Of a stretch of 64,000 bases of DNA, positions 20,028 to 62,423 are shown piece after piece. How positions within the stretch are numbered: the stretch's first letter is position 1; every line of letters starts with the position of its first letter. The translations under genes and the position numbers were made by a program. The notes under the pieces are model-generated. The model was not told the origin of the DNA. It was given only the letters and a program-made list of their open reading frames with translations, and made no database searches. Source of the stretch: Hexactinellida sp. DTS-2022. Taxonomy: Eukaryota > Porifera > Hexactinellida. Location: the NCBI GenBank assembly GCA_028753945.1, contig JAPNXP010000001.1, positions 5,322,501 to 5,386,500 on the forward strand. The letters are read 5' to 3'.

Positions 20028-20363
20028 AATAAGTCTATAAACTTACTACTGCATCACATAGTAACTTTTTGTTGAGTTAACAAATAATAGACTCAAATTG
20101 AACTTTCAAGGTTTAGTTTCTAGCGATAATCTATAATAATGTGATTTATAGGTCTTAAGAATTAATAAACCTTAAGCAAATACAGCTCTATAATACATTA
20201 TTTAATCGATTTAATAATCGGTTAAAAATTCAAAATGTTATTATAGGTAGACAAGTATGCTTACGAATTTCGCATTTACAAATTTAAATATGAATAGTAT
20301 TCAAATATTGCGATAGTTTCTCTCTCACAATGCAGTATAATTTAATTAAGTTAAATAATCTAT
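20028..20363. promoter_or_regulatory. Upstream region of the RRM/F-box gene
   Basis: 336 bp of AT-rich DNA between the last transposon and the start codon. It contains a local palindrome, AATCGATTTAATAATCGGTT, near 20204-20223. No TATA box or initiator is convincing. Confidence 0.3.
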
Positions 20364-22361
20364 ATGAGTGCATCCAAAACTAAGAAGACCTACAAAGTGT
20401 TCGTTTCTAACATTCCTTACTCAACTGGATACCAGGAGGTGTATGATGCATTATCTGACTTTGGCCCGATAAAGAGCTGTGCTATGCCTACTAAGCGGGG
20501 CGGCGAGGGAAGGCGGGAGGCATCTGGAACTGCTTTCGTAACTTTCTATGACGAACAGAGTATGGTCAATTCGCTGAGTGGGGACTCGAAGCTAAACTTG
20601 GGGGGCAGGGAACTAAGAATACAAACTGCATTAACTAAGAGCTCTATAAAAACATCTGATTCAATCTCTCAACTAACGCCTCAGCGGAATAATGACACAT
20701 ATATACAGCAGCCCACTGAGAACCAGCACTGCCTAGTGATACCAACGGGCGTATGGCATTATATCTTATCCTTGCTAGACATATCCGCTCTGTGTCGCCT
20801 TGAGCAAACCTCTCGGCTGTTCTACAGTATCTGCAGGCAGCAGTGGTGCCTGATGACAGCTCTCTCGTTCAGGAATGTGTTCTCTATTTGGAGAATCAAG
20901 TGCACAGCTGGATTATCGAATGAACTTCTCTCTGTATTTCTATCCAGAACAGGTCCGTCCCTATCATCCCTTGATGTGTCTGCCTCTGCGCGCTTTCTAA
21001 CGCCTGGCATGCTGCAGGTTGTATCGCACTACGCCCCGAAGCTCACAGCTCTGGACATCTCGGGGGTGCAGCTCTCGCTAGAACCCGTGCAGACCTACTT
21101 CCGCTGCTGCTGCTCGCTGCGCAGTCTATCGCTAGCCGGCTGCTCGGGGCTATCCGAGAAGGTGCTGTGGTGGATAGTCAAGTCGAGGAGAGACCTGGTG
21201 TCTCTTAACATCAGTGAGTGCAAGCGGGTTACCGGAAACTGCTTCCGTATGCTAAATGGCTCTCTCCTTCATATGAATGCCTGCGGCTGTTCACAGCTGT
21301 CAGATCAAGGCGTGGGTTATATCTGCGCTGCTAGCCCTGCTCTTCTCTCGCTCAACCTGGAGTGCTGCTACTCACTCACTCCACAGGTGCTCACACATGT
21401 CTCCTCTTGCAGTCAACTGATCTCCTTTCAGTTTCCAAGGACCCTGATTACCCAGGACACAATAGCCCCTCCTCCGCATCTGCTAGAGCTGTCTAGGATT
21501 CACACTCTCCAGCATCTCGACTTGTCTCACCACCAGCAGCTGGCAGACTCATTTCTACTCTCTCTAGTGGGCGCTCCTCTGCTGACGTCACTCAAGATAC
21601 CCGGGTGCTATCTCGTGTCGGACGTCGGCATATCTCACCTCACGCACTGTAAGCACCTGTCTGCTCTAGACATATCCTATCTGAATCTCGTCACCGACAC
21701 AGGCCTTCTGAGGCTGCAGCTAGACCTGCGCTCTCTCATTGCCCGCATGTGTCCGGAGATTACATACATTGCTCTGTGCAGTATTATTGAGAATAGCGCA
21801 GCTCTCCTCCATTTGGATGTGAGTGCTTCCGCTCGCATCTCCTCGGAGTGTTTCTCCTCTCTGGTTGCTCACCTGGAGAGGAACAAGGTCCGCCTGGCCC
21901 ATCCTCTCCACTGGGCATTCGGCGGTACAGAAGTCACCGAAGAGGAGGTCCACAGGTTCTTTGAGCTGACAGGAGTGCGGTTAACGCTTCAGGACTCGTC
22001 TAATTCTACATTCGCGTACGGACGAGACACGGAGATCTTTATGCCATCTCCAGAGGAGGAGTACCCAGATGTGGGAGAGCAGCCGGAGAGAATCGAGGTG
22101 ACAAAGTGTCTCCCAGAGGCACAACTGGACCCCCCAGCCGCACACCCCCTCCCGCCCCGCAGTGAGATTGTCATCTCATGCGAAGAGAATTGGGACGATG
22201 ACTGTGAACCTCCGTACATCATAAATACGAATAATTATTTTCCTACCGATCAGCACAGCTTCCTCTCTGACCACTTTGATGGAGATCTTGACGATGACGA
22301 GGCTAACTACTTAGCGTCTGATGATGTTATCTACTCACAAGATAGGTTCGAGTTGTCATAG
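20364..22361 (+). CDS. RRM, F-box and leucine-rich repeat protein
   Basis: A single-exon gene of 665 residues. Residues about 10-92 form an RNA-recognition motif: VFVSNIPYS as RNP2, GTAFVTFYD as RNP1 with Phe at the expected places. Residues about 120-170 look like an F-box (VIPTGVWHYILSLLD, then LEQTSRLFYSICRQQW). From about 185 to 500 there are cysteine-containing leucine-rich repeats such as LTALDISGVQLS, LVSLNISECKRVTG and LLSLNLECCYSLT. The last 100 residues are acidic. F-box/LRR proteins usually act as substrate adaptors of SCF ubiquitin ligases, with the LRRs binding substrate. The RRM suggests RNA or ribonucleoprotein targeting, which is inference. I know no standard FBXL with this N-terminus. 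The transporter gene starts 215 bp downstream on the same strand. No orthologue name is given. Confidence 0.85.
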   Translation: MSASKTKKTYKVFVSNIPYSTGYQEVYDALSDFGPIKSCAMPTKRGGEGRREASGTAFVTFYDEQSMVNSLSGDSKLNLGGRELRIQTALTKSSIKTSDSISQLTPQRNNDTYIQQPTENQHCLVIPTGVWHYILSLLDISALCRLEQTSRLFYSICRQQWCLMTALSFRNVFSIWRIKCTAGLSNELLSVFLSRTGPSLSSLDVSASARFLTPGMLQVVSHYAPKLTALDISGVQLSLEPVQTYFRCCCSLRSLSLAGCSGLSEKVLWWIVKSRRDLVSLNISECKRVTGNCFRMLNGSLLHMNACGCSQLSDQGVGYICAASPALLSLNLECCYSLTPQVLTHVSSCSQLISFQFPRTLITQDTIAPPPHLLELSRIHTLQHLDLSHHQQLADSFLLSLVGAPLLTSLKIPGCYLVSDVGISHLTHCKHLSALDISYLNLVTDTGLLRLQLDLRSLIARMCPEITYIALCSIIENSAALLHLDVSASARISSECFSSLVAHLERNKVRLAHPLHWAFGGTEVTEEEVHRFFELTGVRLTLQDSSNSTFAYGRDTEIFMPSPEEEYPDVGEQPERIEVTKCLPEAQLDPPAAHPLPPRSEIVISCEENWDDDCEPPYIINTNNYFPTDQHSFLSDHFDGDLDDDEANYLASDDVIYSQDRFELS

Positions 22362-27634: not shown

Positions 27635-27761
27635 AATTAGTTTTTCATTTTAAGATTGTTAAATATTTAAGGATTCTCAATTATTTTTTTCTTTAGTCAG
27701 AATCCATTTAAATCACCCCCATTTCTGAAATCTGATTCTTTATTAATAACGAATACTGTTT

Positions 27762-29441
27762 ATGACTGCCACTTCACGTATGAAATGTATACACGAACTA
27801 CCAAATAGTAGTATATATTCACTAACTTTACCTGTTACAAATATTATTATCATGGAGTACACATCAAATGAATACAAGCGGAGCGTTGGAAGAGTTTTTA
27901 CAACTCAAGATGGTAATAAATATATCAAATCCAAAATTAAGGGGAATTTTATGTACCTTCGATGTGTGTTATTTAGGGGTGGGTGTAAGGGTTCAAGTAA
28001 ACTTAATCATGAAACCAATTTAATCATACCTTTGAATTCGCATAATCATAATGTCGAAAAGTATCAAACAGAAGTTTATCTATTAAAAACAAAATGCAAA
28101 ACTATGGCCAGGAATTCCCAAACAAGCCTTAGAAGAGTTCTTGATAATGTTACAAGAAATGATCCTTGTGCATGTGATATCTCCTTCAGAGAATGCGAGT
28201 CATCCCTCTATCGAGCGAGACGAAAGTCGAAAATTCCGCTTTCTGCTCCCGAGTTTGTTGCTATGCTGCCAACAAGAACATTGGAGAAATACTACAAGTA
28301 TAGCGTGACGAGAAGTGAGCAAACAGGTGTAATCTTTTATTCAGAGCAGATGCAGACATTTTTGGATGAAGTGACCAATATTCAATTTGATGGTACATTC
28401 TTTACCGTTCCAACTCAATTCTCTCAGCTCTGGACCATATTTGTATCTGTGGGAAGACATACTCTGCCAGCTGTTCATTGTTTAATGACATCAAAGAGCC
28501 AGGAACTATATCAAGCAGTATTGGAGAGTATTTGTACTAATATTCCTCAATTCCGGCCATTAGCGAGTATGTCAGATTGGGAACCAGCAGCAAGAAATGC
28601 TTTTAAGTTGGTGTTCCCTCAAGCGAGAATTTACGGATGCTGGTTTCACTACACCCAGAGAATTTGGGCTAAATCACAACAATTTGGACTTGTACAAAGT
28701 TTTGGAGATAATCCAGAAGTAAAAGCTTACATAAAACAACTAATGGCAATCCCGTTTTTGCCAGCTCCCCTAATTATTCCCACTTTCAATTTCCTTCTAA
28801 TGCCAGTTATACAAAATACTGAAAAATTAAAGCTCGAAAAACTAAAAAATTATTTCAAAAAACGTTGGATAAATCAAATAACTCCTGAAGAACTTTCTAT
28901 TTATGAAATCAGCATCGCTACAAATAATGGAGCAGAAAGCTATCATTCTAAACTCAAATCAATAGTAAGAACTAACCATCCAAGGATATGGACGTTTATG
29001 GAAACTCTGAATGAAATAATACAGGATACAGACAATGATATAGGACGTTTACGCATAGGCAGAGAAATCAGTAGACCACGAAAAAAACAGGATATTAATA
29101 ATGAGGAACGTAGGAATACTTGCAAACAGAAGTTGTCTTGTGGAGATTACAACCCAATGGAATTCTTGAAAGCGATTAGCTATACAATTGGCAACATTAA
29201 ATCGCAAGAATTTATTTCTTCAAGTGAATCAGAATATTCCGACGAAGAAAATGTTGAGCCAACTGGAGAAAATAATAAATGTATTATTTGTCTTGCGCCT
29301 CGTACAGAAACATGGATCTTCATGCCCTGTAGACATGCCAATTGCTGTACAGAATGTAGCCACACAATTGAGGAGCTAGAACACCCTTGTCCTGTGTGCC
29401 GTTCTATAATCGAAAGCCGCTTTCAAATATTTACTAGTTGA
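27762..29441 (+). CDS. MULE transposase with FLYWCH-like and C-terminal RING domains
   Basis: 559 residues, one exon. Residues about 30-100 resemble a FLYWCH zinc finger (GNKYIKSKIKGNFMYLRC, then C and a final HNHN). Residues about 205-410 are the MULE DDE region: FDGTFF supplies the first Asp, SDWEPAARNAF the second, and NNGAESYH the Glu; YGCWFHYTQ is the characteristic C/H motif between. Residues 511-553 form a RING finger: CIIC, CRHANCCTEC, CPVC, in C3HC4 order, like the RINGs of IAP-type ubiquitin ligases. The transposase would cut and rejoin the element's ends; the RING implies ubiquitin-ligase activity toward itself or a host factor (inference). No frameshift is seen. It may start at an internal Met (MKCIHELP or MEYTSNEY). 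Confidence 0.85.
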   Translation: MTATSRMKCIHELPNSSIYSLTLPVTNIIIMEYTSNEYKRSVGRVFTTQDGNKYIKSKIKGNFMYLRCVLFRGGCKGSSKLNHETNLIIPLNSHNHNVEKYQTEVYLLKTKCKTMARNSQTSLRRVLDNVTRNDPCACDISFRECESSLYRARRKSKIPLSAPEFVAMLPTRTLEKYYKYSVTRSEQTGVIFYSEQMQTFLDEVTNIQFDGTFFTVPTQFSQLWTIFVSVGRHTLPAVHCLMTSKSQELYQAVLESICTNIPQFRPLASMSDWEPAARNAFKLVFPQARIYGCWFHYTQRIWAKSQQFGLVQSFGDNPEVKAYIKQLMAIPFLPAPLIIPTFNFLLMPVIQNTEKLKLEKLKNYFKKRWINQITPEELSIYEISIATNNGAESYHSKLKSIVRTNHPRIWTFMETLNEIIQDTDNDIGRLRIGREISRPRKKQDINNEERRNTCKQKLSCGDYNPMEFLKAISYTIGNIKSQEFISSSESEYSDEENVEPTGENNKCIICLAPRTETWIFMPCRHANCCTECSHTIEELEHPCPVCRSIIESRFQIFTS

Positions 29442-37603: not shown

Positions 37604-38113
37604 ACATAATAGCTCATAAGAGTGTTCTTACTGTTGTATCAAATTGTGTCTCAATTAGTTTTAGTATATAGGTTCACTGTGATTTCGATTACCGTCGAAA
37701 CCTCCAGGCCCCGTCAGCTATTTTCCGAAATCCAAAAAAGTTTGACTCTGTATAACTAATTGTCCTTAACAAAATGTTTCTATACAAATACCCTTCTTGC
37801 TTGGTTTATCAACTAAATATAGATTTTCCCCACAGTAAGCTTAGTTCGTATATATATACACGTAGTCATTAGCTTGTAATAAGGACTTTAGTTTATTTTT
37901 TACGAACACTTTTCGTATAGTTGGAATATTCCTAACTGATTATTATGAAGTAATATAAAGCACTATTAGTCTACTTCTACTGGGAAGAAAGGTTGCACAA
38001 TATCTCTTCAACATATTGTGACATTATTGAAATTCATTTATTTGAATGGTTAATCACCAATAATTATCACTATATAAACAACGATCAATCAATAATTTAA
38101 TCCAGACGTTATA
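37604..38113. promoter_or_regulatory. Upstream region of the caspase-like/SEFIR/death gene
   Basis: About 510 bp of AT-rich DNA with a TATATATATA stretch at 37849-37860. No immune-response element is convincing. Confidence 0.3.
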
Positions 38114-39808
38114 ATGGAAATGCTACAGAGTTTTTATATGAGCGAGTTGGGAGACGGCGGTGACTTTAAGGGGTTCTCAGTCCTAGCAGAAGGGCTCCAT
38201 CACATCGACGGAGCTAGCGAGCTAATCCCAAACAAAGCAAACCTCAAATGCATAACTTCTTCTCTGCAATCACTCGGGTTCACTGTAAGGGAGATAGATA
38301 CAACTAATTCAGATGAGAATTTTACTAATTTCGACGGTAGCAGAGCCGACAAGTTGCTCACGATAATACCTCGAGAAATAGAGATGTTTAAGCTCAACAA
38401 ACAGAACATAAATTGGTTTATATTCTACTTTACCGGTTTCATTAAGGACACCGATCTAATAATGCCCTGGGGTGTTACCAGTATAGTGCAGCTTGTGCAG
38501 GATATTAACGACCTACTAGCAGGGATCCCAAAAATGTTCCTCTTTGAATGTACCCATCTGTGTGGCCCTGATAGGAACTATGTTCCAGACATGCTCAACA
38601 GTATCTCTGGAGAGGACTACCTGCTCTGTTTCTCCACAGAGTACGGTTACAGCTCGTTCCACGCAGAGGTCTCCTGGTGGACAGACCACCTCAGCAAACA
38701 GCTGGTGAACAGCTGTAAGCTCAACTACTGTATGATAGAGTCTATGGACTCTCTCAGACTACAGTTCAACCAAACCAAATTCCCAATTAAAATAGGGAGT
38801 CCCAAGTTCATAGACCGTCTGTCAAGAATATTGAAATTCCCACAATTCGAGCCTATTCCAGAGCTGGAGCTGGCCATCCCTTGTCCGCTACAGAAATCTG
38901 TGTCTATATTTCTTCTGTGTGCTCACGAGGGATTCTCAGAGGGGGACCCTTACCTTATACGGCTAATAGAGATCCTCTATCAGTTGGGGTTTGCTGTCGA
39001 GAGCGACCTCTACTTCACACAGAGCAAGATGTCCCTCAACCAGTGGATCGTGAACAGCATTGAGGACTGCGATTACACTATGATAGTAGGCTCTCCCATT
39101 CTCAAAGCGCTCATGACTGATGGCACTAACCAACCGATTAGCCATGACAACCGCACTCTCTTCTTCTCGGGAAGTGTTGTGTATTCTAATCTGCTAAACC
39201 CACGCTTCACACAGAAGCTAGTACCTGTAGTGATACACGAGTACTACTTGACCTACAGCCCGGAGAGTTTGTTCCCGAGTCCTATCTACGGAAATGACGT
39301 GTATTATTTCAAAGACATTCCTGACTCGCCCGCGCATCTCCGCTTCAGCTTGCTCCCACCTGACTTCACTAAGGTGTTCTGCAGACTGAGAGGCATAAAG
39401 ATCGGGCCCGGCATGAAGAACCCGCTCTCCTATGTCGATGCAAACAGTGGATTCGTGCCACGTAAAATCATTAATTGTAGTATTGACCCGAATCTCACTA
39501 ATTACCTAAATGAGTTTATTGGTAACGAGATTGGAGAGTTGGCATGCGTTGTAAGTGAAGGGTTGCAGAAGAGCGAGTGGAAGTTCCTAGCAAGACAACT
39601 CGGCCTGAAGGAGAGCAAGATTAGCGAGGTTGAGTTCGATTGGGAGAGGGATGGGCTGCGGGAGATCAAGGTTAAGATGCTAGTGGCCTGGAAGAATCAA
39701 GACGAGAATGCTACTTATTTTAAACTTTGCAATGCACTGAAATTGATTCAATGCAATTCCGTTGTTGTGCAGGTGCACAAATTCATGGCTGATTTCTTCA
39801 GAAAATAG
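38114..39808 (+). CDS. Caspase-like, SEFIR/TIR-like and death-domain protein
   Basis: A single exon of 564 residues with three domains read by motif. Residues about 18-210 resemble a caspase p20 fold: KGFSVLAEG, LGFTVREIDTTN, a central strand WFIFYFTGFI, and GIPKMFLFECTHLCG aligned with the caspase KPKLF-QAC region. The catalytic His-Gly is replaced (FTGF at 106-109), while Cys146 is kept, so it is probably inactive. Residues about 260-400 look like a SEFIR or TIR domain: VSIFLLCAHEG, YLIRLIEILYQLGFAVESDL, LNQWIVNSIEDCDYTMIVGS. Residues about 470-562 are a death domain (SEWKFLARQLGL, then ISEVEFDWERDGLREIKVKM and the W-N--A helix). These modules are used in innate immune and cell-death signalling, so a cytoplasmic scaffold or adaptor is likely. 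The combination is unusual. The middle domain could be another TIR-related fold. Confidence 0.7.
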   Translation: MEMLQSFYMSELGDGGDFKGFSVLAEGLHHIDGASELIPNKANLKCITSSLQSLGFTVREIDTTNSDENFTNFDGSRADKLLTIIPREIEMFKLNKQNINWFIFYFTGFIKDTDLIMPWGVTSIVQLVQDINDLLAGIPKMFLFECTHLCGPDRNYVPDMLNSISGEDYLLCFSTEYGYSSFHAEVSWWTDHLSKQLVNSCKLNYCMIESMDSLRLQFNQTKFPIKIGSPKFIDRLSRILKFPQFEPIPELELAIPCPLQKSVSIFLLCAHEGFSEGDPYLIRLIEILYQLGFAVESDLYFTQSKMSLNQWIVNSIEDCDYTMIVGSPILKALMTDGTNQPISHDNRTLFFSGSVVYSNLLNPRFTQKLVPVVIHEYYLTYSPESLFPSPIYGNDVYYFKDIPDSPAHLRFSLLPPDFTKVFCRLRGIKIGPGMKNPLSYVDANSGFVPRKIINCSIDPNLTNYLNEFIGNEIGELACVVSEGLQKSEWKFLARQLGLKESKISEVEFDWERDGLREIKVKMLVAWKNQDENATYFKLCNALKLIQCNSVVVQVHKFMADFFRK

Positions 39809-59900: not shown

Positions 59901-62423
59901 CGTAACACGACAATTCGTAACACGACAATTCGTAACGCGACATTTCGTAACATAAGATATATCTGATTACTCATTCTATTACTTATAATTTAAATAGTTA
60001 GTACTTTATTATTAAGTAGTATAATGTAGTGGAAAATAAATTAGTCAGATCCAATACTAAAGTGGTACGATACTCCTCTTAGAAATTCCATTCTGGGGCG
60101 GTGCGGATAACTAAGAATTAGATTTTTCAGGGCTCTTTCATTATCTTTGACTGCTTTCCGTTTTACTGGTTGGTCCCCAGCAATGTACTTGGCTTGCCTC
60201 ACTTCTACTAATCCTTGTTCCCTCTTGAGTGCAGAAATAAAACCCACAGTGCAATTAAAGCTCCGGTGCCATGCTTCCACCGCATTTGTTGTTCGAGGGA
60301 TCCCTAGGACTGTATCAAAATGGTAGTTCCATATACCAATTGGAAACAATGGCTGTTGGTATGCCCCACCAGGTAACCTTCGTCCTATATAGGTCCTCTC
60401 GAAGTACTCAATTAATTGATCCGCCTGAGGAGTAGGGAGCTGGGATGCCACTTCAGCAAACAGGCTGGGGACTTCGAAAGGATCTGCAAATGCCAGAGAT
60501 GCTATCATTCTAATACTTATAGCGAATTCTTGATCATTCGAATATAGTGTCTGCAACCCTACTGCTTGGACTTTCCGCCATATATTCTGGGTGAGATGAA
60601 AAAAGCATCCTTTAACAGTAGAGTTAGGCCATGTCTGCTGAAAACTGTTAATAGCAGCCTTCTCAAAGTCCATCAGCATATCTTCTGGGTGGGCTTGCGG
60701 ACAAAGAAGCTGCACCTGTTGCCACATTCTTTTATATGTTGCTTCCGATTTGTTGGGGAGTAAAATAAAAATACTTGGCAACAAATGGCCATCTTTCAGC
60801 AAATCAGGGCCTCCTCGAAGAGCATGTATTACATATACTTGTGTGAAAAGTAGAGGAGCCGTCCTAAAAGTACCATCAGCTAACCATACCCTGGAGAATT
60901 GCAACATATCTAGGTTCTTCTGAGTAGCAAAAATTAGTATCCTCTGGATCTCTGGACCTGAATCATATAAGAGAAAAAGCTCGTATTTTGATGTCCGCAT
61001 GAATTCTTCTGGTATTATAAGTTGTTCCAGAGTCGTAGGTTGAACTGGTGCTGTTAGAACACGTTGACGTTGTATAGTACGTTTAAGACTATCCAATTTG
61101 GGCAGCTTGGCAGCAATACCCTCATTTACTGTTTGGACACATTCACCCACAATATAATGTGAACTATCTTGGGATCCCTTTGCTTTTCTTTTAATATTTA
61201 TTTTTACTTCACTGCAGCTAATTGCTTTCTCATCAGGAGGATGTAAGTGTTGGTTTGTTCGTTTCACAATTTCAAATCCTTGTGTGTGTACAATTGCTTT
61301 ACACAATCCTCGTTGAACACACAGCCAGTGAGTTGTTTCTCCAATTCTTCTATGCTTTCCATAAATGTATCCCCCTTCTATGAGCTTCTCTGCGCCTCTC
61401 TGAGATATACTTAGTCTGAAAGACTGATGATGAGATTGTGCCATGGAAAATAAATTACATTGATCACAACAACAACTTATTTATATAATTTTACAGAGGT
61501 TTATATTAGGCACCTCAAAATGTTTTATATAACAGGTTTGTTTACGCATTATATACAATATAGATATCCAAATTAATCAAAAGGATGACATATAGCAGAA
61601 TTAATAGAATCAAAATATTTATTATTCTCACGTTACGAATTGTCGCGTTACGAATTGTCGTGTTACGAATTGTCGCGTTACGAATTGTCGTGTTACGAAA
61701 TGTCGTGTTACGAATTGTCTGTTACGAATTGTCGTGTTACGAATTGTCGCGTTACGAAATGTCGTGTTACGAATTGTCTGTTACGAATTGTCTGTTACGA
61801 ATTGTCGTGTTACGAATTGTCGTGTTACGAATTGTCGGTATCCCCCAATTTGCTGTAGCTGTTAACAGCCTTTGTTATCTTAAGTTAAATGGTATAGGAG
61901 TAGACATCAGATTGATAATATTTGATTTGTTATCAATACTACTCGTACTTAAAACAAATAATTTATTCAGTATATCATATTACTTTATAGTTACTAGTTA
62001 AGATTACCTAGATTTGATGAACTGGATTTTGTGCATCCATGCTGATGACATCAGTGGTGCTCATCAACTCAGTTATCACTAATTCATTAGTCCGTACTAT
62101 ATAATAGGCGCGAGTGTGTGAATACAGACTCTCGTTAATGCGAACACGGATAGACCAATATTGGTTAGGTGTACATGTTTAATTCCCTAGCCAATATAAA
62201 ACAATGCAAGAATTTAAATTTTTATGAACCTTCTTCTAGTGGAGATACTGCACGGGCCCTAGGGTATCTGGAAAAAGCAATAAACTATGTTCGCACCAAG
62301 CAAGAGATGGCCAGTTTGCAGACCCTCAAATTAATACTGGTATTTCAACCGGAAATAAACAAAGAGATTCTAGCATGCGGCTTGGATCCCATAGAACTAC
62401 AGAATGCTCTACCTAAACCCTAA
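47936..62423 (+). CDS. TOM70-like mitochondrial import receptor, 12 exons
   Basis: Exons: 47936-48160, 48808-48993, 50119-50164, 50386-50475, 50730-50845, 52140-52206, 54117-54461, 55594-55718, 56283-56417, 56475-56708, 59165-59433 and 62240-62423. All introns are GT-AG, phases agree, and the sum is 2022 bases (673 residues plus stop). Residues about 12-34 are a membrane anchor (VLAIGAPIVVSIAAVSIFIY) followed by basic RKRRKER. Exon 2 starts the TPRs (AKIYHNRAATYEKL); exons 3-5 carry RIIEDCTKAINIDPMYAKAR, typical of TOM70; later TPRs include YDDAINTFKEAQQVDPTNPS and EQLEYAIKIDPQCAVAMEAL. TOM70 sits in the outer mitochondrial membrane and receives carrier precursors from Hsp70/Hsp90. Exon 7 encodes an Ala/Ser-rich linker. 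Introns are large because of transposons, and one hosts an antisense gene. The acceptor of exon 3 is a tandem TAGCAG. Confidence 0.8.
48601..48693. mobile_element. Perfect-ended palindrome, 93 bp, in intron 1 of the TOM70-like gene
   Basis: AGCGGCCGTATTCACTAAGA at the left is the exact inverse of the right end, and the inner AAGATCGATCTTAAG motif occurs twice. Possibly a miniature foldback element. Confidence 0.75.
49020..50110. other. Intron 2 of the TOM70-like gene
   Basis: Contains a GC-richer segment (49075-49250, with GCCCCGGGCTAGCCAGATCCTGCGAC, similar to the end of the hAT MITE at 18898-19062), then AT-rich DNA with no recognised feature. Confidence 0.45.
51151..51969. mobile_element. 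hAT-type element in intron 5, 819 bp
   Basis: The ends CAGTGGCGTAGCTAGG and CATGGCTACGCCACTG are inverted. The flanks CCGCGTAG and CCGGATAG agree at 6 of 8. No transposase recognised. Confidence 0.7.
52357..53885 (-). mobile_element. Broken hAT element with ZMYM1/DUF4371-type transposase, 1529 bp
   Basis: Exact duplication CTCTCAAA at 52349-52356 and 53886-53893; the ends are CAGTGGCGTCGC and CGCCGCCACTG. The minus strand encodes pieces of a transposase: LAILCDETKDVGKEEQLSIC and CYDDASVMSGRLGGLQA (53156-53671), and near the other end the hATC piece IPVTTAENERSFSCLKSTKT (52532-52714). The middle is deleted or frameshifted and a run of about 21 C lies at 53009-53029. The copy is not autonomous. 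It lies in intron 6 of the TOM70-like gene, antisense to it. Confidence 0.8.
54462..55593. other. Intron 7 of the TOM70-like gene
   Basis: About 1.1 kb, AT-rich, nothing recognised. Confidence 0.35.
55781..56190. mobile_element. hAT-like MITE in intron 8, 410 bp
   Basis: CAGGGGTCGGAAATC and GGTTGCCGACCCCTG are inverted CAGGGGTCGG-type ends. No clear 8-bp duplication. Confidence 0.6.
56876..57294 (+). pseudogene. MULE transposase relic in intron 10
   Basis: The frame reads ADFEIAPRNSFTQVF then IVGCWFHYTKAIYDNVKKIG, the second catalytic Asp and GCWFH motif of a MULE transposase; it shifts frame near 57070 and continues as GLPLLPEEEILPVILSMEIP. The first catalytic Asp, zinc finger and C-terminus are missing. 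Confidence 0.75.
57395..57605. repeat. Decayed tandem repeats next to the MULE relic
   Basis: At least six imperfect copies of TTAGGACAAATTCC with linkers such as AGTACCTAGAGATTT. By analogy with 59856-61844 they may be the tandem-repeat end of the relic. Confidence 0.6.
57818..58792 (-). CDS. Cathepsin B-like cysteine protease, antisense in intron 10
   Basis: A single exon of 324 residues. Residues 1-25 are a signal peptide. A short propeptide follows with a cathepsin B-type core (NRAQSDWVAGVNEGF). The mature papain-fold domain starts near 95 (IPTEFDIRYKWPACVGRIRS). Catalytic residues are Gln115, Cys121 (QGHCGGCWAF), His273 (GGHAIKIVGWG) and Asn293 (VANSWGTGWG). NGCGGGY and CGGCW match the cathepsin B group, but the His-His occluding loop is absent, so it probably lacks dipeptidyl-carboxypeptidase action and works as an endopeptidase of the Giardia/invertebrate type (inference). 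It would act in lysosomes or be secreted. It lies wholly inside a TOM70 intron on the opposite strand; no own introns. Confidence 0.9.
   Translation of the reverse strand: MTVMDTLINAFTLLVLLNACVSVDAHTILRSMALSSEDIVLLVNRAQSDWVAGVNEGFEDLTLDQARQFANTFLPANSSAQVVRTAADYSDDVDIPTEFDIRYKWPACVGRIRSQGHCGGCWAFAAVEALGDRVCIRSGGRVAVDLSAQQLIACDTASNGCGGGYLLSTWEYLQNIGVVSSYCYKYSFFSKVFGVTGRCKLNWYGDFCPNNKSEVPSFYKSIGAYQLASEVETIQKEIYLYGSVEGGIQVYSDFLHYKYGVYRHVYGKSVGGHAIKIVGWGSDGGVDYWLVANSWGTGWGQLGGYFKIKRGVDECEIESFVFAG
59864..59951. repeat. Left terminal tandem array of the MULE
   Basis: Units GACAATTCGTAACAC, with GACATTTCGTAACAC variants, alternate in CACG and CGCG linkers. Confidence 0.9.
60041..61444 (-). CDS. MULE transposase with FLYWCH-like N-terminus
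   Basis: 467 residues, single exon, intact. Residues about 8-70 resemble a FLYWCH finger (GGYIYGKHRRIGETTHWLC, C and a final NQHLH). The DDE core follows: LADGTFRTAP gives the first Asp, LMDFEKAAINSFQ the second, KGCFFHLTQNIW the C/H motif, and TTNAVEAWHRSF the Glu. It should cut and rejoin the ends of the element 59856-61844. It has no RING, unlike the MULE transposase at 27762, and is about 90 residues shorter. The gene stops about 90 bp before the left terminal array. Confidence 0.88.
   Translation of the reverse strand: MAQSHHQSFRLSISQRGAEKLIEGGYIYGKHRRIGETTHWLCVQRGLCKAIVHTQGFEIVKRTNQHLHPPDEKAISCSEVKINIKRKAKGSQDSSHYIVGECVQTVNEGIAAKLPKLDSLKRTIQRQRVLTAPVQPTTLEQLIIPEEFMRTSKYELFLLYDSGPEIQRILIFATQKNLDMLQFSRVWLADGTFRTAPLLFTQVYVIHALRGGPDLLKDGHLLPSIFILLPNKSEATYKRMWQQVQLLCPQAHPEDMLMDFEKAAINSFQQTWPNSTVKGCFFHLTQNIWRKVQAVGLQTLYSNDQEFAISIRMIASLAFADPFEVPSLFAEVASQLPTPQADQLIEYFERTYIGRRLPGGAYQQPLFPIGIWNYHFDTVLGIPRTTNAVEAWHRSFNCTVGFISALKREQGLVEVRQAKYIAGDQPVKRKAVKDNERALKNLILSYPHRPRMEFLRGVSYHFSIGSD
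61629..61837. repeat. Right terminal tandem array of the MULE
   Basis: About 14 units of CGTGTTACGAATTGT type, some shortened by 2 bases (TCTGTTACGAATTG). The array is more than twice as long as the left one, and translation of it gives the spurious periodic ORFs here. Confidence 0.9.

Follow-up and report, generated by a model that had tools for sequence, protein, structure and literature searches.

The locus lies in a window of 64,000 nucleotides, which is the whole stretch of DNA analysed here and is part of the genome that was searched (112,398,167 bases on 18 contigs). The gene under study is a single open reading frame of 564 codons that is uninterrupted and requires no intron (Table 1), as was already recognized in the initial annotation, which had described one intact 564-residue exon. 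Given the base composition of the window, about 3e-12 open frames of this length are expected by chance, and for this reason the frame is taken as real. In parallel, its GC content at codon positions 1, 2 and 3 is 47, 33 and 57%, respectively, with 33% in each flank. A TATAAA that may serve as a promoter element precedes the start codon, and a further TATAAA is found at 37954 on the same flank of the gene. Other large single-exon frames are present in the window (1079, 509 and 668 aa). The 1079-aa frame is a DNA_pol_phi protein, which we take to be MYBBP1A-like, and the 509-aa frame is an amino-acid transporter. The 668-aa frame (20355-22358, forward strand) holds RRM, F-box and leucine-rich-repeat matches, a combination that is, to our knowledge, uncommon.

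Table 1. Features of the predicted pseudocaspase-SEFIR-Death gene and its upstream flank (window coordinates).
Feature	Position	Strand	Basis
Single-exon gene, pseudocaspase-SEFIR-Death, 564 aa	38114..39808	+	Open reading frame, coding composition
TATAAA, possible promoter element	38073..38078	+	41 bases 5' of ATG; sequence only
Caspase-like domain (predicted pseudocaspase), residues about 19-225	38168..38788	+	hhalign against 27 same-genome caspases
SEFIR-class domain, residues about 263-430	38900..39403	+	Homology to contig 4 paralogue, hhalign
Death domain, FADD/RIPK1-like, residues 480-553	39551..39772	+	Pfam Death, PDB matches, same-genome FADD-like protein

At the C-terminus, the presence of a Death domain is certain from its profile match, as residues 480-553 score 43.1 bits with Pfam Death against a cut-off of 22.6 (E 4.6e-11). 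The initial annotation had set this comparison beforehand as a test by which its death domain could be refuted, and the domain emerges from it unharmed. Of PDB entries, RIPK1 comes closest (E 3.4e-8), followed by FADD (E 1.6e-5). A search of the genome with the Death family gives four exon-contained matches, represented by the window gene and by three others that can be read as UNC5-like, FADD-like and MyD88-like and, so read, point to an animal genome. These three, together with the Death domain of a SEFIR-Death paralogue on contig 4, were compared with the window domain, with 500 shuffles for each comparison. The score obtained with the FADD-like domain (100, z 15.7) is reached by 0 of the 500 shuffles; the paralogue follows (z 6.6, 0/500), and then the MyD88-like (z 2.5, 13/500) and the UNC5-like domain (z 0.7, 128/500). 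BLASTP aligns the window and FADD-like domains with 41% identity over 56 columns. Among the four same-genome death domains compared, the one of the FADD-like protein is thus the closest in sequence to that of the window protein. The paralogue's own Death domain has a z of 0.2 against the FADD-like one and so is not FADD-like. The FADD-like protein itself (L036:1456-2394, reverse strand, contig 7) carries, besides its Death domain, a weakly DED/PYRIN-like N-terminus, where DED (14.8 bits) and PYRIN (14.9 bits) fall short of their cut-offs and an unrelated viral family reaches 15.0. In the MyD88-like gene (L041:2270-4720, reverse strand, contig 13), a long simple repeat lies between the Death and TIR exons.

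Ahead of the Death domain, residues about 263-430 are, by homology, a diverged SEFIR domain. Pfam gives no SEFIR match in the whole window protein or in residues 251-438 alone, and the assignment comes from the one other SEFIR place in the genome (contig 4, 393073-393564, reverse strand), which is 29% identical over residues 258-429 (E 1.2e-7). In hhalign, the SEFIR of this paralogue scores 43.8 with the window domain, compared with 25.7 for the best of 200 shuffles and 12.4 for a control alignment with the window protein's own N-terminal domain. Two-sequence comparison extends the relationship into the Death domain, with 25% identity between the window protein and the paralogue over residues 269-543 (E 1e-11). 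No match was obtained by phmmer with the window SEFIR alone, by hmmsearch of the PDB with a two-row SEFIR alignment, or by searching the genome with the Pfam SEFIR family, which was also silent in 14 of 14 control genomes. No IL-17 receptor was found in the genome, where the protein query returned only the two SEFIR loci.

The contig 4 paralogue was modelled as four exons and three introns encoding 340 aa, with SEFIR followed by Death; its splice sites were chosen by hand, and four acceptors within 120 bases for intron 2 keep Death in frame. Without the glutamine-rich tail, Pfam reports SEFIR at 25.2 bits (cut-off 23) and Death at 24.7 (cut-off 22.6), while with the tail (340 aa) TIR_2 alone is listed, below cut-off, and SEFIR is not. 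The Pfam scores of the paralogue range from 25.2 to 26.6 bits for SEFIR against the cut-off of 23 and from 21.5 to 23.1 bits for TIR_2 against a cut-off of 28, and its SEFIR matches PDB entry 5y8f, named a Sefir domain protein, with E 0.007. A TIR in place of a SEFIR was therefore rejected for the paralogue, which is below the former cut-off and above the latter. A mixed TIR/SEFIR profile scores 32.8 with the window domain (best of 200 shuffles 18.7), as expected because the TIR and SEFIR folds are related. The domain had been annotated as SEFIR/TIR-like; of the two names SEFIR is the better one, since the paralogue passes the SEFIR cut-off and fails that of TIR_2. A CCT-like chaperonin gene, read from its translation, begins about 290 bases upstream of the paralogue in the opposite direction, and therefore no room is seen there for a caspase-like part.

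The N-terminal domain was compared with the caspases of the same genome. Pfam Peptidase_C14 gives no match at E up to 10, whether the query is the full-length protein or its N-terminal part; in the genome, 64 matches to this family are listed at E up to 0.001. Of the family searches suggested by the initial annotation, the one for Death succeeds in Pfam, and those for Peptidase_C14 and SEFIR find no Pfam match in the window protein. A caspase profile was then assembled from 27 of the 64 genomic matches (L003-L030 minus the partial L027). Upon alignment by hhalign with residues 1-256, this profile scores 41.8 (E 8.4e-6, probability 83%). None of 300 shuffles scores above 28.5, and none of 31 decoys, which were pieces of other window frames, above 17.8. 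Lower values are also given by the reversed sequence (11.4), by the protein's own SEFIR (13.3) and Death (15.7) parts, and by the paralogue SEFIR (12.0). Five caspase sub-profiles each exceed the best of 100 shuffles (36.7 against 22.3, 39.5 against 25.6, 36.9 against 21.4, 38.5 against 20.2, and 30.1 against 23.1), the last and weakest being made of the nine rows L003-L011. In pairwise alignment, 3 of the 27 single caspases exceed all 200 shuffles.

When the domain is divided, a score of 41.7 is obtained with residues 120-235 by themselves, where 150 shuffles give at most 22.8, and residues 160-235 alone score 26.6 (shuffle best 21.7). Residues 1-164 score 22.9 against 19.6 for the best of 150 shuffles, a narrow margin, and residues 1-134 alone score 16.4, which 11 of 150 shuffles reach, although they are colinear in the global alignment. 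Caspase kinship is thus well supported by these profile comparisons over the catalytic-Cys strand and p10 (residues about 120 on), and for the first half of p20 the evidence is its colinearity, because residues 1-134 alone are not above shuffles. In particular, GYSSF...SWW of the window domain falls on GYVAWR...GSWF of the p10 part, and phmmer gives a weak p10 match to the caspase-6 small subunit 6ppm_B (E 0.21 and 0.25). AlphaFold models made without relatives have a mean pLDDT of 31.7 for the whole protein and of 40.0 for residues 15-235 (pTM 0.38). Both models are of too low confidence to bear on the fold, and the TIM barrels and other unrelated folds that Foldseek and VIA-align list for the latter, with no caspase among the best 50 of each, count neither for nor against a caspase. 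The order of caspase-like, SEFIR and Death parts in one protein, as initially annotated, is backed by profile, paralogue and Pfam evidence, respectively.

As to the active site, hhalign and three MAFFT modes agree in placing Thr147 at the catalytic Cys position and His183 at the p10 Arg position. Cys146, which had been annotated as the kept catalytic Cys, lies one residue before that position and aligns with the Ala of QACRG. A retained catalytic Cys was considered and rejected, since the pairwise register with one caspase (L016) that would allow it needs a three-residue insertion beside the strand, and the four alignments give Thr147 instead. In the weakly aligned half, Phe109 tentatively occupies the catalytic His position and Leu37 that of the p20 Arg. 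Whatever the alignment, histidine is absent from residues 31-147, and therefore this stretch cannot supply a caspase-type His-Cys dyad, in line with the loss of His-Gly that had been annotated. The Cys position is separated from the p10 Asp by 20 residues, and all 27 aligned caspases have a longer spacing (23-76). No prodomain is present because just 18 residues precede the caspase-like domain, and Pfam lists no DED. Judged from its active-site residues, the caspase-like domain should be inactive.

All in all, the protein appears to be a pseudocaspase joined to the front of a SEFIR-Death immune adaptor. SEFIR and Death domains work through homotypic binding. We infer that the frame is produced as a protein, probably cytosolic, and that its inactive N-terminal part would take the full caspase fold. 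The SEFIR would then bind another SEFIR protein, which may be the tail of an IL-17-receptor-type receptor or the contig 4 paralogue, and the FADD-like Death domain would join, or compete for, a death-domain platform of FADD type. The pseudocaspase would dock on active caspases and tune them up or down while cutting nothing, as c-FLIP(L) does on caspase-8, and caspases would be available to dock on because the genome has 64 caspase-family matches. In c-FLIP(L), the His and Cys of the dyad are replaced by Arg and Tyr, and the heterodimer with caspase-8 is favoured over the caspase-8 homodimer, as described in PMC7586951. A scaffold or adaptor role, as initially annotated, is the likeliest reading of the active-site loss and the domain content. 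Its specific form, in which SEFIR signalling would be coupled to FADD/caspase platforms with a c-FLIP-like tuning of caspases, is put forward tentatively, at somewhat less than an even chance. We hold a little more loosely the wider proposal of a previously undescribed class of adaptor. Its single chain would unite a SEFIR input of IL-17 type with a FADD-type death-domain platform and a c-FLIP-like pseudocaspase, so that an early animal would have a direct route from inflammatory receptors to the control of caspases, and its regulatory pseudocaspase would stand apart from the c-FLIP lineage. If this wiring were true, inflammation-type SEFIR signalling and caspase control would be united in a single molecule of this animal, inflammation-type receptors could be connected directly to cell-death control, and a regulatory pseudocaspase would have arisen outside the c-FLIP lineage.

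Several known systems share parts of this arrangement. Act1/CIKS (ACTL-1 and the ACT1 of non-amniotes) likewise combines SEFIR and Death in one adaptor, the two domains being recognized in the window protein by homology and by Pfam, respectively. The window protein differs by the pseudocaspase added in front and by the FADD-like Death domain, and ACT1 is written in the order DD-SEFIR in PMC7190641, whereas the window gene and the paralogue model have SEFIR-DD. In placozoans, which are early animals, a MyD88-like protein has been described that likewise pairs SEFIR with DD, and the account in PMC6321704 reports no caspase-like part for it. c-FLIP(L) is alike in being a pseudocaspase with both dyad residues replaced that acts on the FADD axis; however, its pseudocaspase follows two DEDs, and both SEFIR and DD are absent, while the window protein is without DED. 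MALT1 resembles the window protein in joining a Death domain to a caspase-type domain with a scaffold role, but it is composed of DD, Ig and paracaspase, is an active protease and lacks SEFIR. According to PMC7190641, the SEFIR adaptor ACTL-1 of worms works with the paracaspase MALT-1, which is both protease and scaffold, and a possible ancestral function of MALT1-like paracaspases in IL-17 signalling has been raised. A caspase-like domain built into a SEFIR protein would be a test case for the early linkage of caspase-family scaffolds to SEFIR adaptors. The hybrid or shortcut immune genes of amphioxus are also similar, in that receptor or adaptor domains are coupled straight to caspase or death domains (PMC2575513). 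The TNFR- and LRR-caspase hybrids described there retain the active-site QACXG motif, and the word SEFIR is absent from the main text of that study. SEFIR sequences are otherwise recorded in the demosponge Dysidea avara, one or two in number as text and table differ (PMC12909245), and in two of the three ctenophores compared in PMC11797021. A pseudocaspase-SEFIR-Death protein was not found in the open-licence literature among the matches listed, nor was an open-licence paper that pairs a SEFIR domain with a caspase domain. Since SEFIR-Death proteins are known and a plain SEFIR-Death paralogue is present in the genome, this kind of adaptor is already known, and what sets the window protein apart is limited to the added pseudocaspase and the FADD-like character of its Death domain.

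The same architecture can be read in other ways. Chief among these, the protein may be an Act1-like scaffold of NF-kappaB type, in which the caspase-like part replaces the MALT-1 scaffold, so that two signalosome partners are fused and cell death is left untouched. Indeed, MALT-1 of C. elegans directly binds ACTL-1 and has a scaffold role, and a DD-SEFIR architecture is given for ACT1 in most non-amniote lineages (both PMC7190641). This is rather unlikely, as the order SEFIR then DD is the reverse of ACT1 as written in that source, the Death domain is FADD/RIPK1-like and not MyD88-like, and the N-terminal domain is nearer to a true caspase than to a paracaspase, as seen in the p10 alignment of GYSSF...SWW and in a caspase profile that still scores 38.5 without L023, the sole row read as paracaspase-like. 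The loss of the active-site positions and the lack of any further domain listed by Pfam would also suit a decoy that holds SEFIR receptors and FADD-like platforms and passes no signal. We consider such a decoy unlikely, although sequence cannot separate it from a positive scaffold.

Other readings bear on the N-terminal part or on the gene as a whole. The absence of a Pfam match, with a first 134 residues that do not rise above shuffles, would fit a different alpha/beta fold whose match to caspases is due to chance, to convergence or to a short stretch. This seems improbable when set against a score of 41.8 that neither shuffles (28.5) nor decoys (17.8) reach, the narrow excess of residues 1-164 over all 150 shuffles, and the fact that the catalytic-Cys strand and p10 follow each other in the correct order. 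It is very improbable that the gene is a lineage-specific fusion that sees little use and is drifting. In favour of such a fusion, a genome-wide comparison at E up to 10 gives no second match to the N-terminal 258 residues, and the window gene is intronless while the paralogue model has three introns. However, 564 codons are open with coding composition, other large frames of the window are single exons too, and the SEFIR is just 29% identical to that of the paralogue, which indicates that the frame has been kept open over a long time.

Further observations concern other genes of this genome. Three single frames of 1559-1744 aa join a Roc GTPase to a C-terminal caspase (L050:3432-8663, L051:4427-9499 and L052:3968-8644, all on the reverse strand, on contigs 14, 1 and 11, respectively). 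The L050 frame also carries NACHT and CARD, and the L051 frame reaches the end of the fetched stretch. Each resembles a sensor with a caspase of its own directly attached. On contig 6, a stretch of about 13 kb (322813-336041) holds eight Peptidase_C14 matches, which form a tandem caspase cluster. One caspase of the same contig (L028, at L053:3035-4045, reverse strand) reads GAHG and QNCRE where most others read SHG and QACRG, with His and Cys kept, and has a near-copy elsewhere on contig 6 (L029). Within the window, a MULE transposase and a RING finger share one frame at 27750-29438 (forward strand), with a FLYWCH match below cut-off, and our reading is of a gene or element that derives from a transposase and carries a domain of ubiquitin-ligase type. 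A second frame, of 479 aa (60044-61480, reverse strand), is a FLYWCH-MULE transposase without RING. Finally, a pattern for a silicatein-like active site matches a single place in the genome, and the sequence there, CGSCYAF, is that of an ordinary cathepsin-type site.
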